Shown one piece after another: positions 56,519 through 64,000 of a stretch of DNA of 64,000 nt. Each line of letters opens with the position of its first letter. Position 1 is the stretch's first letter. Both the position numbers and the translations under genes were made by a program. The notes under the pieces are model-generated. The model did no database searches. It was not told the origin of the DNA and worked only from the letters and a program-made list of their open reading frames with translations. The stretch comes from Algoriphagus sp. GTDB lineage: Bacteria > Bacteroidota > Bacteroidia > Cytophagales > Cyclobacteriaceae. The stretch is taken from the NCBI RefSeq assembly GCF_024305035.1, contig NZ_JAMWZB010000009.1:1-64000 (forward strand), given 5' to 3'.

Positions 56519-56546
56519 TCAGGGTAATACCTCAACCTTGCCAACC

Positions 56547-57716
56547 ATGAAAAAAATCCTGCATCTTTCAATCTTTCTACTTTCATTGCGAGCCTTCGCT
56601 TGCGATTGTAACCCGCCGGATATCACCGAAAAATTCATTCGATCTGATTTCGTTGCCAATGTGACAATCCTCAAAATTTATCCCAACAAAGGAAATGAGG
56701 CAGGATATAAAGCTGATATTCAAATTAATGAATTATTCAAAGGAGAAAACCTAAAGTCAATTTATATTTATGGAAGAAGTGATAACGGAATTGGAAGTTC
56801 TTGTGATATGTATATTCCAGCAAATACCAAACTTATCGCCTATGCGATTAAAAATAGGGATGGAAATTTTGGAATAGGAATGTGCTCTGGAATAATGTAT
56901 CTAGATTATTCCGGATATTATAAAAAGAAAACGTTAAAGACCGAAAGTGAGCTGAAAAAACAAAAAAGGGAATTAGAAATTCTACAAACTTTTAAGTCAA
57001 AGAATATAAACCATACTGACAGAATAATTTACAGAGAGAAAACAAACTTAACTAATGAATTACAACAATTTAAAGGGATTCAACTTGAAAAAAAATTCGG
57101 AATCTATGAAATAACGGGAGTATCTTCTGTTTATCAGGAATATCAGTGTGATTCCTCCTTTGGAATTTTTGGTATTTATTTTTATCCTTATGCCCTCCCC
57201 TTTCTGTTTAATATACCTTCTTTGGCCTTAAGTGATCAAATGCTGGATCTTCAATCTTTTCTAGGAAAAGAGGGTCGGATGTTGGAGGAGCGGATTTTGG
57301 GAGCGGTGTCTAATGAAGAAAGAATGAAAATAATGACTGATTTTCTTCGAAGAAGGCTAAGAGATACACTCCCAAACGAACTGAAATTCCAACAAGTCAT
57401 ACAATCTCTTGTGAATTACCAACAAGAATTCACTATTGAAAAACTGGCAGCAGACTGTAATTTATCCAGAAGGCAATTTGAGCGCCAATTCTTGAATTAT
57501 GCCGGTTTGAGTCCCCAAAAATACTACCGAATTCTTCGGTTCCAACACGCAACTGAGTTCTATAAAAACAAGGATCTTAACCTAGCCCATCTAGCCTTAG
57601 ACTGCGGTTATTATGACCAGGCACACTTTATCCATGAGTTTACCAAGTTTTCCGGTTATCAACCCAAAGCCTACTTTTCCGGAAAGGTAACGGGTGTGGA
57701 ATGGCGGGATTGTTGA
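56547..57716 (+). CDS. chimeric ORF: secreted NTR/TIMP-like N-terminus fused to C-terminal part of a DUF6597-AraC regulator
   Basis: N-term MKKILHLSIFLLSLRAFACDCNPPDITEKFIRSDFVANVTI (signal peptide + CxC); C-term FGIFGIYFYPYALPFLFNIP...LAADCNLSRRQFERQFLNYAGLSPQKYYRILRFQHA...CGYYDQAHFIHEF HTH. Confidence 0.75.
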   Translation: MKKILHLSIFLLSLRAFACDCNPPDITEKFIRSDFVANVTILKIYPNKGNEAGYKADIQINELFKGENLKSIYIYGRSDNGIGSSCDMYIPANTKLIAYAIKNRDGNFGIGMCSGIMYLDYSGYYKKKTLKTESELKKQKRELEILQTFKSKNINHTDRIIYREKTNLTNELQQFKGIQLEKKFGIYEITGVSSVYQEYQCDSSFGIFGIYFYPYALPFLFNIPSLALSDQMLDLQSFLGKEGRMLEERILGAVSNEERMKIMTDFLRRRLRDTLPNELKFQQVIQSLVNYQQEFTIEKLAADCNLSRRQFERQFLNYAGLSPQKYYRILRFQHATEFYKNKDLNLAHLALDCGYYDQAHFIHEFTKFSGYQPKAYFSGKVTGVEWRDC

Positions 57717-57769
57717 CTTTCTGGTTACCCAATCACTGGACCAAGTACAATACCTGTTGCCAGGTAAGA

Positions 57770-57937
57770 AGTTTTTTTTGGGCAAACCGCCAGGTAATGG
57801 TGAACCGGCATGCTTGTGAGTATTTCGAACCCATAGGAAATGGTAAACTACAATTGATAGTGCAGCCCGAATTGGCTAACAGGATTATCATCAGCCAGAA
57901 GCGGGCAAAAGGATTTAAGGAATGGGCGGAGAGTTAA
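57770..57937 (+). pseudogene. truncated LytTR DNA-binding domain (C-terminal half only)
   Basis: FFWANRQVMVNRHACEYFEPIGNGKLQLIVQPELANRIIISQKRAKGFKEWAES* matches the 'FFRANRQFIV...GKL.L.......IIVSR.RA.EFK.W' end of LytTR. Confidence 0.65.
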
Positions 57938-59374
57938 TTAATCGAGTTTCTCCCTGACTTCTAATAAATAAGTTAGATCAAGAGGGTGACAGGAATAATC
58001 GTCCAGGTGCATTCTGAAATTGTATTTTTTCGTTATCGGGTCTTTATCTGTTTCCCTGATTTTTATCAAAAGTTCCTTTAGGGTTACTTGTTTGCTCTTT
58101 AAAAGGTGAACCAAATAATCCCAGGTACGCAAATCCATGATAAAGAGATTTTCAACTGGTAGGAGGCTAATGTTTTCCTCGTTTAGTCCAATCTTCTCAG
58201 CTTCTTCTTTCAAAAACTGGTCCCATAAATCTGTGGCATTCCCAAGCATTAAATCTCGATAAGTAATAATGATTCCAAAATATTCAGTTCCGTGTGAAGC
58301 TATTGATGAAACCACAGAAATCATTTGAGTACAATATGCCTTAACTATATTCTGCCTGAATTCATTTGCAAGAATTTCATCAGTAGGATTCGCTGCTGTG
58401 AAGGGCTTAACTTCAATGCCTTTTACTTCAACAACAATATGATCTTCCAAAAGAAAATCTACAAGGGTGTGGTGTTTTCCTAACCTGGACTTTAGCTCAT
58501 TTTCATTTTTAAAATCTATCCCCGATTCATGAAGACCCATTTCAACATATTTTTCCATCCGGCGTCCTAGCTCCGGAGAGAAGTCAGGGTCCTTATGTTT
58601 CATAAATTCATAGATGAAGTGATTGATGGTCACGTTCAATATGTCTCTATGGGGAATGATTACGCGATTATCGAAGAGAAACATAGGCCTCCGGGTGAAT
58701 ATCGATGGTTCAAAAATCTGGAGGTTGTAATTTCGAATCTGACGAGTATCCATATTTATCGCCACATCTATGGACTCTCGCGATATGGTCCATAGTTTAA
58801 ACAATTGATTACTGAGTTTCGACCCAAATTGTATTTCAACTAATTCAGGGAACCTATCAATTGAGATTCCTTTAATTATTTTTTCTGAAGCGGTGTCATT
58901 TAAAAGTAGAAGAAGTTTAAAATGAAGAACTTTTAAAAAATCTGTTATTGAAATTCCGGTCAATTTTTCAAAACTGCCTGCGATATCATACTTGTGCTTT
59001 ATTTGATTGAATAACAGATATTGTCTTGCCGTACAATCCCAAAAGGCCTTTTCCTGGTAAACCATTTGCTGCAGTGAAAGAATAATGAAGGTCTTTTTGA
59101 GATTGCCGCCGTTTCTTCCGGGATAGAAGATGTTGTGTGCGTTTTCTAGTTTTTCGATTTGTTGATACAGACTAATGATATCTTTGCGAGAAGCTTCCTT
59201 CAATGGATAATTTCGACCTCCAAATTCAATTGCCCACCTGAGCAGAAGTAAGCCTTGCCAAAAAGCCTGGGGGCGGGATGATTTTTCCTGGTTTTTAAGT
59301 ATAGATAGCAACTCCCGAACCAAGGAGTTGTAGGTAAATCTACCCAGCTTATTCTGAATAGGCTTATAATTCAT
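57938..59374 (-). CDS. putative PD-(D/E)XK nuclease-like protein, downstream partner of AlbA_2
   Basis: 478 aa from ATG 59374; GRRMEKYVEMGLHESGIDF...HHTLVDFLLEDHIVVEVKG fits E...D-x(n)-ExK; start lies inside the upstream gene (11-nt overlap). Confidence 0.6.
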   Translation of the reverse strand: MNYKPIQNKLGRFTYNSLVRELLSILKNQEKSSRPQAFWQGLLLLRWAIEFGGRNYPLKEASRKDIISLYQQIEKLENAHNIFYPGRNGGNLKKTFIILSLQQMVYQEKAFWDCTARQYLLFNQIKHKYDIAGSFEKLTGISITDFLKVLHFKLLLLLNDTASEKIIKGISIDRFPELVEIQFGSKLSNQLFKLWTISRESIDVAINMDTRQIRNYNLQIFEPSIFTRRPMFLFDNRVIIPHRDILNVTINHFIYEFMKHKDPDFSPELGRRMEKYVEMGLHESGIDFKNENELKSRLGKHHTLVDFLLEDHIVVEVKGIEVKPFTAANPTDEILANEFRQNIVKAYCTQMISVVSSIASHGTEYFGIIITYRDLMLGNATDLWDQFLKEEAEKIGLNEENISLLPVENLFIMDLRTWDYLVHLLKSKQVTLKELLIKIRETDKDPITKKYNFRMHLDDYSCHPLDLTYLLEVREKLD

Positions 59375-60509
59375 CTGCTCTGGCATTCGACTTCCATCTG
59401 TTAAAAAGTTGATATACTTTATCCGCGAAAGCTGGGTCAACACCAAATTCTTTCCCTACCCTCTTGATGTTTCTTGAGGCAAATTCTCCGGCAAATCCAA
59501 CAGCTGTTTGTTCAAGAAGGGGTTGGTTGTCAGTTAAAAAATCTTCGAAATGCTGCTTTTCTGCCTCATCCCTGAAGATGATAAAGGGTGCGGACATTCC
59601 TCGCGACTCCAGGGAAAGCTCACCCTTCGTCAAAAGATATAAAAACAGCCCATTCAGGGAATCCAATAGGTAGTGATAGTACCATTGGTCTCCCATCTCT
59701 AAATCAAGGTAGCCGGTTTTTGGCACAGGAAGCATGATCCGCATTTCATCGCAATACATATATTCCAATTCCGCAATAGGTGTGGTATGGTACATGAATT
59801 TGGCTGTTCCCAGAAATGAGGATTCATTGGTGTAGAAGTAGCTATAGGGCTCATAAAACCTTTCCGGTTCGCTCAGGATGATGGAGTATTCAGGATATAT
59901 CAGGTGGTAAAAATGATTACTATTGCCAATGTCCATAGACCAGTTTCCAGGCTCTTTGAGCAAGGCCTTCAACCTGTCAAGCGAGGTAAGGTCAATTCCG
60001 AACCTTTCCCGCCACATTTTCTCCACAATCCAAAAGTCTGTGGAGGCGTTAAGCGGGGTATTGGTATCATTTATTCTGGAATAGATATGATGGGCTTTGA
60101 CTGTTGTTCCTCTGTCCTTGTAATCCTCAGTCAGTGTATAGGGCTTAAATGGCCGGTCAAGAATTATCAGTACATCGATTTCGTTGTCTTCAATTTTGAG
60201 TGTCTGTAGTTCAATCTCAGGCCGTTTGCCTCCCGAAAAACTTTTGCTTCTAAGGAAATCAATGTAATTGGATTGCTTTTTCCGGTTGGGCTGATTTTGG
60301 GCCAATCCTTTTACCCAGGTTCCTTCTTGGCTTTCCTCTATACCGATGATGAGGTATTTGTCTCCTTTATGTAGCGAATTAGCCAGGCAAAGGATGTCAT
60401 GGAGGAGGGAAGCATTATTGTCGTGCGGTTCAGATTTAAAGTCCCAGAAACTCCCTTCCCTGTTTTTGCTGATCAATTCCCTGATGATAAATTCAAGCTG
60501 TTGAGCCAT
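59364..60509 (-). CDS. AlbA_2 (Schlafen-type ATP-binding) domain protein with novel C-terminal region
   Basis: REGSFWDFKSEPHDNNASLLHDILCLANSLHKGDKYLIIGIEESQEGTWVKGL; C-terminal about 200 aa not recognised. Confidence 0.85.
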   Translation of the reverse strand: MAQQLEFIIRELISKNREGSFWDFKSEPHDNNASLLHDILCLANSLHKGDKYLIIGIEESQEGTWVKGLAQNQPNRKKQSNYIDFLRSKSFSGGKRPEIELQTLKIEDNEIDVLIILDRPFKPYTLTEDYKDRGTTVKAHHIYSRINDTNTPLNASTDFWIVEKMWRERFGIDLTSLDRLKALLKEPGNWSMDIGNSNHFYHLIYPEYSIILSEPERFYEPYSYFYTNESSFLGTAKFMYHTTPIAELEYMYCDEMRIMLPVPKTGYLDLEMGDQWYYHYLLDSLNGLFLYLLTKGELSLESRGMSAPFIIFRDEAEKQHFEDFLTDNQPLLEQTAVGFAGEFASRNIKRVGKEFGVDPAFADKVYQLFNRWKSNARADEL

Positions 60510-60550
60510 ATGTTGTTTTTATTGGCAATTACTGCGGTCGGGTATAAAGC

Positions 60551-61606
60551 CTAACCCCAAACTTTTACCGTTTTAGCGTCGAAATACCGGACATAACACT
60601 TAAACTTACTTTCAATAGTTTTCAGGTGTTTCAAGTCTGAATCGGAATAAACTCCGATGTATATGCTATTCAACATATGCCATTTACCATCACCTTCTTT
60701 CTTTTTCTTTGCCGCTTTATTGATAGCGGCGATGATGTGTTCATCATAGGGGCCAAAACCAAAGCCAAAGCATATCAGGGAGCCTTCAAGATTTGAGAGC
60801 GTGTCGTAGCAGAAAGACAGGTACCTGTTATGCCGGATATGACTTAGTTTTTCTTCTCCGTTCCCGGCCGTTACAAAGATGGGGTATTCCTTTCTTGCCA
60901 TTCTGGCTTTGACATTTTCCAATAAAACATGTTCGTTGCTGTATTCCTCCTTAACGATATCTATCCCGGCATCGAAAATATGGAGTGCTCCGTGAACGTA
61001 AAAAATTGATTGTGTATCCTTGTTTTTGCCCCACCGCAGTTCAGACCACATGCTGTCTTCAGGAGCTATGAATTCGTCAGTCTCGTCGGTTTCTCTTCCA
61101 AAACCGTCTCCAATCCGATCGAGCTGGTTTCTCATTAAAACCCAATAGAGCAACAAATCATAATTGGTAGTAAAAATATTGCCCTCTTGAGAAAGATACT
61201 CATTAAGAAAATCCGCGCAAGCCTGGCTTTTCTCTTCTGAAATGGAAAAGACATGTTCAGGATGGAGTTCTTTGATGGCTTCAATCAAGCTTTCTTTTAA
61301 GGTTGTGGTAGCCTGGTGAATCTTGTCGACTACTCCTTTTTCAGCGCCAAAAACTCCGGCAATTTTAGCAACATTTTCGAGCTGCTCCATCAGCAACTCA
61401 AAATTACTGGTCTTAATTATTCCGAAAAGCTTTTGAAGAGTATCGTTCTCTATATTCTCCAAAAACTTACTTAGGGCATTATACGAAAATATCCCGGAAT
61501 CATAGGACATGCTAAAGCCATTGCCCAGCAATAAATGTTTCTTCCGGTTTTTTTTTCTGAGCGAGGCAATAACTTCCTCGTAGGTCAATAAGTCAGTGTC
61601 TCCCAC
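60551..61606 (-). CDS. DUF4917 SIR2-like protein
   Basis: HLLLGNGFSMSYDSGIFSY, NIFTTNYDLLLYW, FYVHGALHIFD, CFGFGFGPYDEHI; GTG start with in-frame TAA just upstream. Confidence 0.85.
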   Translation of the reverse strand: MGDTDLLTYEEVIASLRKKNRKKHLLLGNGFSMSYDSGIFSYNALSKFLENIENDTLQKLFGIIKTSNFELLMEQLENVAKIAGVFGAEKGVVDKIHQATTTLKESLIEAIKELHPEHVFSISEEKSQACADFLNEYLSQEGNIFTTNYDLLLYWVLMRNQLDRIGDGFGRETDETDEFIAPEDSMWSELRWGKNKDTQSIFYVHGALHIFDAGIDIVKEEYSNEHVLLENVKARMARKEYPIFVTAGNGEEKLSHIRHNRYLSFCYDTLSNLEGSLICFGFGFGPYDEHIIAAINKAAKKKKEGDGKWHMLNSIYIGVYSDSDLKHLKTIESKFKCYVRYFDAKTVKVWG

Positions 61607-61693
61607 AAAGCTTTAATTGAGTCAAAGAATTCCAATTTTTGCATGTCAAAATAGTTACATTATGCTTATTCATCTCTATTGTGTCTACTCCAC

Positions 61694-62806
61694 TTAAGGA
61701 TTGTTTTTTGAACCAGTAAGCAGCCTGATTGTATGGTACCAGTAATAGAAAGAGGATTTGTCAGGCTGACGTTTAAGACGATTTAAGAAATTCCAATCAG
61801 GGTCTTCAATAGTCAGTTTACTTACATCTTGCCCGTTATAATAATCAATTGGGGAAAGGTCATTAACCTTTAGTTTAGCAGCGAGGTAAGCAATCCTTGC
61901 TGATGCGGGAATGGCATCGTCAATACGGAATGTTCCTGACATTAAGAATCCTGTGCCAAAGGCCCGGATTCCTCTTTGTAATTCAGCAAATTTTTCCTGC
62001 TCCCCAGTTGAACCTGTTCCACGCTTTGCCAGGATCAGGCAGGTATCCAGCGTGTCTTGTAATATGTCTCCCGGAGTCAAGTCAAATTGTTCCTGGCCAT
62101 TTTTTCGATAGGCTATTTCCTGTCCCGAAAAAGCTTTGAAACTTGCAGCCACCGTCTCCATGTTCCGGATTTGCTCAAATAATCTACTCAAGTCAAAGAG
62201 CTGTTTGCATATTTCCATGGAAAATGGCTGGCGGTCCCTGCCTTTAAAATAGGGAATGCCGATTGTATTTGGCGCAAATGCAGTGAGTTTATCGCCTGTT
62301 ATAGAGTCAACCGATGGCAGTGTGACAGAATGTTCATCTTCTACTTCTATCCATTTTGTATTTATAGGTTTTTCAATGAGTTCCGGATAGAGTTGTTTTT
62401 CAAAGAGGATGTCTAATAGAATTGTGCCTGAACCCTGGAGATTAGTTTCAAATGAAAATTTATAATGTGCTTTGGGTACACCGGGTAAGTAACTTCGGTG
62501 TGTATCTATTTCAAAGCCGGTAAACCTGGATACCTCTACAATTTTTCCGAATATGGACTCCAATTCTTCCCTGCCTGCTGTGCAGATGATATCTATGTCA
62601 ATAGAAAAACGATTGTCCTGTTCCAATAACAGGACCAGGCTGGTGCCTCCCTTAAAAACGAATTCAAGCCCACGGGCCCGAAGCTCCTCCAGCAGGTGGA
62701 GCGCATAAATCATTTTTTCAAGAATGATTTTGTCAATGCGGCTGTGATTTTTTTGCTTCCGGAAGGCCTCAAGCCATTCTTCAGTGAAACAGTGGTCCTT
62801 GATCAT
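61694..62806 (-). CDS. AbiEii/AbiGii-like nucleotidyltransferase toxin
   Basis: LEFVFKGGTSLVLLLEQDNRFSIDIDIIC nucleotidyltransferase motif; ATGA overlap with upstream gene. Confidence 0.88.
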   Translation of the reverse strand: MIKDHCFTEEWLEAFRKQKNHSRIDKIILEKMIYALHLLEELRARGLEFVFKGGTSLVLLLEQDNRFSIDIDIICTAGREELESIFGKIVEVSRFTGFEIDTHRSYLPGVPKAHYKFSFETNLQGSGTILLDILFEKQLYPELIEKPINTKWIEVEDEHSVTLPSVDSITGDKLTAFAPNTIGIPYFKGRDRQPFSMEICKQLFDLSRLFEQIRNMETVAASFKAFSGQEIAYRKNGQEQFDLTPGDILQDTLDTCLILAKRGTGSTGEQEKFAELQRGIRAFGTGFLMSGTFRIDDAIPASARIAYLAAKLKVNDLSPIDYYNGQDVSKLTIEDPDWNFLNRLKRQPDKSSFYYWYHTIRLLTGSKNNP

Positions 62807-63567
62807 TCTATGATTTCATTTACAAGGTGAGACATGTGGTTAATCATAAACTGCTTTATTTCTGGTTCTTTGTCCCTTCGCTTGGCATAACTGAAGAGTT
62901 TTGTGAAATTGATGGTGTAGTGGTTTATTGCATGCTCATAAATATGCGTTAGTTCAGCTCCCTGGAGATGGTAAAAGATTTTATCGTCAGCAAACAAGTC
63001 CACTAGAATTTTTTCAAGGAGGGGGGTGTAAAGTTTTACTTTTTCCTTTGTCCTGGTGGTAATAGGAGAGCGGCTGGTAAGCTTCTTTATGACAACCGGA
63101 TAATTACTTTCAGCAATATAAAAGTCAATAGTATTGCTGTCAGGGTTTAAAAATATCTCCCGTTTTGAGGAGGTTTTCAACTCGAAATAGAGTGATTCCG
63201 TAAAGTCCTTCTCTATTTCAACCAGGATCATTCGTTTGCCTGATTGGTGTTGGGAAAATTCATTGAGCCATCCTGTTTCCCAAATACAATACCTAATCTC
63301 TTTAAATACATCGTTGATTCGATGTGCAATTTTTAATAGGTCACGGGAAAGTTCAGGTTTATAGGGAGGCTTATATGAAATAACATACAATCCTCTTTTA
63401 AGTGGCTTGATAATGTTTTTGTTTTTCAGGTCATAGATTCGCCAACCTAGTGTTCCTTCCTTTAGGTCAGGTTCGAATGAGCGGTAGAAATCGAAAAGTT
63501 CCTCGCGGCTGAAGGACTCTTTGTTCTTAAACTCTTCTATAAGCTTATTATCTATGATTTTAGGCAT
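62803..63567 (-). CDS. AbiEi-like / DUF6577-type antitoxin-regulator
   Basis: winged-helix-like N-term GTLGWRIYDLKNKNIIKPLKRGLYVIS; C-term SPITTRTKEKVKLYTPLLEKILVDLFAD; immediately upstream of AbiEii; ATG at 63567. Confidence 0.75.
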   Translation of the reverse strand: MPKIIDNKLIEEFKNKESFSREELFDFYRSFEPDLKEGTLGWRIYDLKNKNIIKPLKRGLYVISYKPPYKPELSRDLLKIAHRINDVFKEIRYCIWETGWLNEFSQHQSGKRMILVEIEKDFTESLYFELKTSSKREIFLNPDSNTIDFYIAESNYPVVIKKLTSRSPITTRTKEKVKLYTPLLEKILVDLFADDKIFYHLQGAELTHIYEHAINHYTINFTKLFSYAKRRDKEPEIKQFMINHMSHLVNEIIE

Positions 63568-63626
63568 TTTATCCAATTTTTACCAAAGTTAAGAAAATAT
63601 GGTGAATATTAGAAATCAAATAAATG

Positions 63627-63646
63627 CCAGTAATTTCAAAAACTGG
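63627..63646. promoter_or_regulatory. candidate operator inverted repeat upstream of the AbiE-like operon
   Basis: CCAGT-aatttcaaaa-ACTGG; flanking TGGTAAA mirrors TTTTTACCA at 63577-63585. Confidence 0.35.
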
Positions 63647-63861
63647 TAAATATTGGATTCAAAGAATTTGTCTTTTTTTGGGTAGATGAGCTTAGGTGAT
63701 TACGAGTAAATTGTTGATAATAAATAATTTGACAAGTAATTGGGATGATTGTCAAGGCATTTTATATCCTAATTGAAAATCAAATGATAAAAACTTGAAA
63801 TCAGATTGGCCGTTCCTGTGGCCGGGCTTTTCACTTCAATCTCCTTCAGAGGATTTTCGTT

Positions 63862-63880
63862 TCAAACCCTAAGGGGTTGA
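63862..63880. repeat. inverted repeat/hairpin
   Basis: TCAAACCC-taa-GGGGTTGA, 7 of 8 pairs. Confidence 0.5.
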
Positions 63881-63921: not shown

Positions 63922-63942
63922 CCTGATGATTCAATCATCAGG
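63922..63942. repeat. perfect 10-bp-arm inverted repeat
   Basis: CCTGATGATT-c-AATCATCAGG. Confidence 0.7.
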
Positions 63943-64000
63943 AGGGAGACATTGTGCTTAATTTGATATTGATGTCAAGGCGCCTGTGAATCAATGAAAT

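Follow-up and report, generated by a model that had tools for sequence, protein, structure and literature searches.

A probable horizontally acquired defence island of four independent anti-phage modules in Algoriphagus

The window, i.e. the whole 64,000-nt stretch of Algoriphagus DNA that was analysed, lies at one end of a contig of 150,833 bases and contains five intact ORFs between positions 57938 and 63567, all on the minus strand. Their coordinates and spacings, originally proposed from the letters alone, matched exactly upon re-checking. In the direction of transcription, the genes encode an AbiEi protein of the DUF6577 type, the putative antitoxin/regulator of an AbiE pair (62803-63567), an AbiEii nucleotidyltransferase-like putative toxin (61694-62806), a DUF4917 SIR2-like protein with a GTG start that is a putative NAD-consuming effector (60551-61606), an SLFN_AlbA_2 protein that is a putative Schlafen-like RNase (59364-60509), and a GapS1-like protein with a PD-(D/E)XK-like signature (57938-59374). 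The genes are closely packed, with a 4-nt overlap between AbiEi and AbiEii (62803-62806), gaps of 87 and 41 nt, and an 11-nt overlap between AlbA_2 and GapS1 (59364-59374). A Bacteroidota -7 motif (TANNTTTG) is found at 63584-63591, just before AbiEi. In our promoter scans, the total count of this motif was not above chance and sigma-70-like sites were mildly enriched; the scans neither separated nor joined the island genes.

AbiE, consisting of AbiEi and AbiEii, is a described type IV toxin-antitoxin and abortive infection system. In the island, the two genes are adjacent and both are recognized by PADLOC models with E-values <1e-89, i.e. PDLC02235 for AbiEi (E 1.9e-90), which also matches Pfam DUF6577 (E 2e-73), and PDLC02299 for AbiEii (E 4e-126). 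The nucleotidyltransferase motifs of AbiEii, GGTSL and SIDIDI (DxD), are invariant in three homologues.

The third protein scores 154.9 bits against Pfam DUF4917 (cut-off 28, E 4e-45), with a weaker match to SIR2_2 (E 2e-4), and has a full-length match (E 8e-111) to PDC-S21, a single-gene candidate in PADLOC. The SIR2 NAD-site motifs GNGFS, NYD, and HG, previously noted as GxGxS, TTNYD, and HG, are kept in its homologues. One homologue (L042:9511-10563) is the last gene of a type III restriction operon and another (L124:9536-10564) has an overlap with a type I restriction gene, which hints at a back-up effector that recurs next to restriction-modification (R-M) operons.

The fourth protein matches SLFN_AlbA_2 (41.1 bits versus a cut-off of 25.3, E 3e-10) and the PADLOC candidate PDC-S50 (E 9e-108). 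Its predicted model has a pLDDT of 80 and its top Foldseek match, with a probability of 1.00 and an E-value of 4e-3, is DIP2311, which we take to be a protein of the AlbA_2/Schlafen fold family. Glu18 and Asp23 are conserved in every homologue covering them, and position 59 is acidic in all but one. The spacing of these residues matches that of the E205/E210/D248 triad in the active site of SLFN13 (PMC5862951). Prokaryotic Schlafen-linked RNases are described as anti-phage backup effectors in PMC12839542, which cites a preprint for bacterial Schlafen defence. Our literature search yielded almost no literature on either PDC-S50 Schlafen-like or PDC-S21 SIR2-like genes. Among phage GenBank records, neither the AlbA_2 nor the DUF4917 protein had a match.

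The fifth protein matches all 455 positions (1-455) of NCBIfam NF047931 (antiphage_GapS1) with an E-value of 2.7e-73. Because its score of 247.4 bits is below the curated cut-off of 320, we name it GapS1-like rather than GapS1. Its identity to the aligned GapS1-like homologues is 20-31%, and the predicted E...D...ExK signature (E274, D306, [D/E]316, and K318) is conserved in all five proteins compared. The structural model is of low confidence (pLDDT 60), with a best Foldseek match to XPF that is not significant (E 1.2), and a single-protein search found no GapS1 relatives in viral sequences. According to a meeting report, GAPS1 protects Klebsiella pneumoniae against many phages (PMC12908700), and it serves as a reference defence protein in PMC12774648. 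Sequence searches of the PDB returned no significant match for AbiEii or for the DUF4917, AlbA_2, and GapS1-like proteins.

As assessed by PADLOC and Pfam, the families originally assigned to the first four genes (AbiEi, AbiEii, DUF4917/SIR2-like, and AlbA_2) are confirmed, and all five genes match known or candidate anti-phage families. The combination of AlbA_2, PD-(D/E)XK-like, and DUF4917 genes was originally said to match no recognised named system. Taken singly, the PD-(D/E)XK-like gene matches GapS1, and DUF4917 and AlbA_2 are the PADLOC candidates PDC-S21 and PDC-S50, so that every module is, by its profile matches, already a catalogued or candidate single defence family.

Both flanks of the island carry gene remnants. 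On the GapS1-like side lies a LytTR regulator remnant on the plus strand (57718-57937), which is 5' truncated and frameshifted in a T run, and whose stop abuts that of the GapS1-like gene. It shares 89% identity with an intact LytTR gene that adjoins the same island in two other loci (L010 and L039). Beside this remnant, the plus-strand ORF at 56538-57716 combines a secreted, TIMP-like N-terminal region with a C-terminal AraC-type HTH and may be a recombination product. On the AbiE side, a minus-strand C-terminal fragment of a PD-Lambda-3_B gene (Hypoth_Ymh, Pfam PF09509) occupies 63938-64000, with an ORF extending to contig position 64414. It matches positions 119-266 of 270 in the PADLOC profile PDLC03987 (E 1.4e-44) and, as judged from its sequence, is a decayed defence gene.

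We then compared the island to its closest counterparts. Over 4,487 nt (59392-63878), the block comprising AbiE, DUF4917, and AlbA_2 is 97% identical to sequences in two other Algoriphagus genomes, A. algorifonticola G299 (L010/L045) and G336, themselves 99.87% identical to each other over 25.3 kb. In these genomes the core gene trpS is only 72-73% identical to that of the window and is located elsewhere, which argues for a recent transfer of the block. dN/dS is ∼0.03-0.22 by gene in the four shared genes; on these ratios, the block is under purifying selection since the transfer. The place of the GapS1-like gene is taken in G299 and G336 by a DUF6904 gene and a 200-aa ORF, which lie between AlbA_2 and the intact LytTR gene, and the breakpoints of this slot are the 3' end of AlbA_2 and the LytTR stop. 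Beyond the other end of the block, each island continues differently, with the PD-Lambda-3_B fragment in the window, a DpdF-like helicase in G299, and a MADS-like operon in G336. Read from these alignments, the differences between the three islands are module exchanges at gene edges. The operon in G336 (L131:1105-17050) contains matches to mad2, mad5, mad6, mad7, and mad8 together with a PP2C phosphatase, and an orphan AbiEi-like gene lies at its start.

At the outer edge of the shared block, homology among the three islands ends at a Flavo-1-like RNA motif (RF01705; 63816-63881, minus strand), identified by cmscan with 34.7 bits (E 2e-4), below the gathering score of 42. Flavo-1, a candidate RNA of Bacteroidetes (PMC2864571), has matches that were reported to lie sense or antisense to transcribed regions indifferently (PMC9723704). 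An initial comparison, in which homology frequently broke off at Flavo-1, made the motif a candidate for a general recombination site or breakpoint. Upstream of ileS, which served as a control, the neighbouring ORF was shared in 20 of 78 pairs with detected Flavo-1 and in 10 of 136 pairs without it; because these neighbours vary with or without the motif, the ileS copies give the idea no support, and we did not retain it. The neighbours of trpS, also used as a control, were conserved in all 435 pairs. The motif was also located at L043:7270-7343 and L044:7719-7788. In several Algoriphagus genomes, copies border conserved radC/ArdC-like segments resembling conjugative elements.

Are these five genes one system or separate modules? 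The original prediction took them as the best candidate in the window for an undescribed defence system, and that prediction itself named a lack of co-occurrence elsewhere as evidence against it. Each module was followed separately, by profile searches of loci in plasmids, whole genomes, and viral contigs; most flanks spanned 1.5 to 10 kb, and a partner farther away may have escaped detection. No second island member was found in these flanks near GapS1-like genes (four loci, in G049, G183, G191, and a Pantoea plasmid), AlbA_2 (eight plasmid loci, one genome fragment, and 13 viral contigs), DUF4917 (four genomes of other genera, Algoriphagus G321, and 22 viral contigs), or AbiE of the DUF6577 type (Algoriphagus G301, G306, and G350). 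The plasmid copies of AlbA_2 have unrelated surroundings, e.g. a Qat system in L013 and a umuD gene in L011 and L012. Apart from the one recent transfer, the survey found no co-occurrence of members in independent lineages. The idea of a single five-gene system owes its appeal to the shared strand and the tight packing, including the 11-nt AlbA_2/GapS1 overlap, yet that overlap coincides with the breakpoint that separates the shared block from the variable slot. Moreover, the island's best match elsewhere, from two Algoriphagus genomes, contains four of the genes and carries others in the place of the PD-(D/E)XK one, and GapS1-like stands alone at all four of its other loci. We reject this system on the co-occurrence data from these loci and give it almost no credence. 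The other part of the prediction, that the locus is a defence-like island, stands, as every gene matches an anti-phage family and other defence genes occupy the same junction in relatives.

A composite of AbiEi, AbiEii, DUF4917, and AlbA_2, in which AbiE would control the SIR2-like and Schlafen-like effectors and GapS1 would be a separate neighbour, is unlikely, even though its gene order, strand, and spacing are the same in the three genomes that share it at 97% identity, its junctions are short, and all its genes appear to be under purifying selection. The three copies reflect a single recent transfer and are thus not independent evidence, three other Algoriphagus genomes have AbiE by itself, and at all their other loci DUF4917 and AlbA_2 are each unaccompanied by the other members. 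Conserved order and spacing together with close packing make co-transcription and some cooperation possible, but the more specific version, in which these genes would be a recently assembled, co-transferred, and co-regulated Algoriphagus system with AbiE guarding two further effectors, is very unlikely. A relic island, in decay and retaining little defence function, is highly improbable. Truncation of the adjoining LytTR and PD-Lambda-3_B genes and an in-frame stop in one DUF4917 homologue would fit such decay, but none of the five island ORFs is disrupted, and dN/dS has been <0.25 in the four shared genes since the transfer.

We therefore favour, with a probability of about 0.85, a horizontally acquired defence island of four independent modules (AbiE, DUF4917 SIR2-like, AlbA_2/Schlafen-like, and GapS1-like) over one new five-gene system. 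In this island, whose modules would act independently by suicide or as nucleases, the first would be the AbiEi/AbiEii toxin-antitoxin pair, whose nucleotidyltransferase AbiEii is predicted from its family to be toxic if unrestrained. The second, which has the motifs of a SIR2-like protein, would probably be an NAD-depleting effector, and the third would probably be an endoribonuclease cleaving tRNA or rRNA. These three modules were recently transferred together, and the fourth, a PD-(D/E)XK-type protein that is probably a nuclease, occupies a slot filled by other genes in relatives. Triggering by phages and independent action of the modules are likewise expected from their families. It is established that defence islands are put together from distinct systems, and here a comparison of neighbourhoods breaks down what looked, from gene packing alone, like a plausible new system into known modules. 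The locus provides a clean natural example of module swapping: three genomes share one four-gene defence block at 97% identity and differ in the cargo on either side of it.

Compared to known systems, the island AbiE pair shares the gene order, the 4-nt overlap, the PADLOC AbiEi and AbiEii models, and the nucleotidyltransferase motifs, whereas its AbiEi is of the DUF6577 type, and toxicity and autoregulation are putative here. The GapS1-like protein resembles GapS1 (NF047931) in its full-length match and in the stand-alone occurrence of its family in other genomes, but differs by its score of 247 bits, under the cut-off, and by its low identity to homologues. The AlbA_2 protein is akin to bacterial Schlafen-like proteins (PDC-S50/SLFN_AlbA_2) in its PDC-S50 match, SLFN13-like acidic spacing, and fold match to DIP2311; the second acidic residue, E210 in SLFN13, is an Asp in the island protein, and RNase activity is putative for its branch. 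Finally, the DUF4917 protein shares with PDC-S21 a full-length match and conserved SIR2-type motifs, but whereas the other homologues in our survey adjoin R-M genes or stand alone, the island copy adjoins AbiE and AlbA_2.
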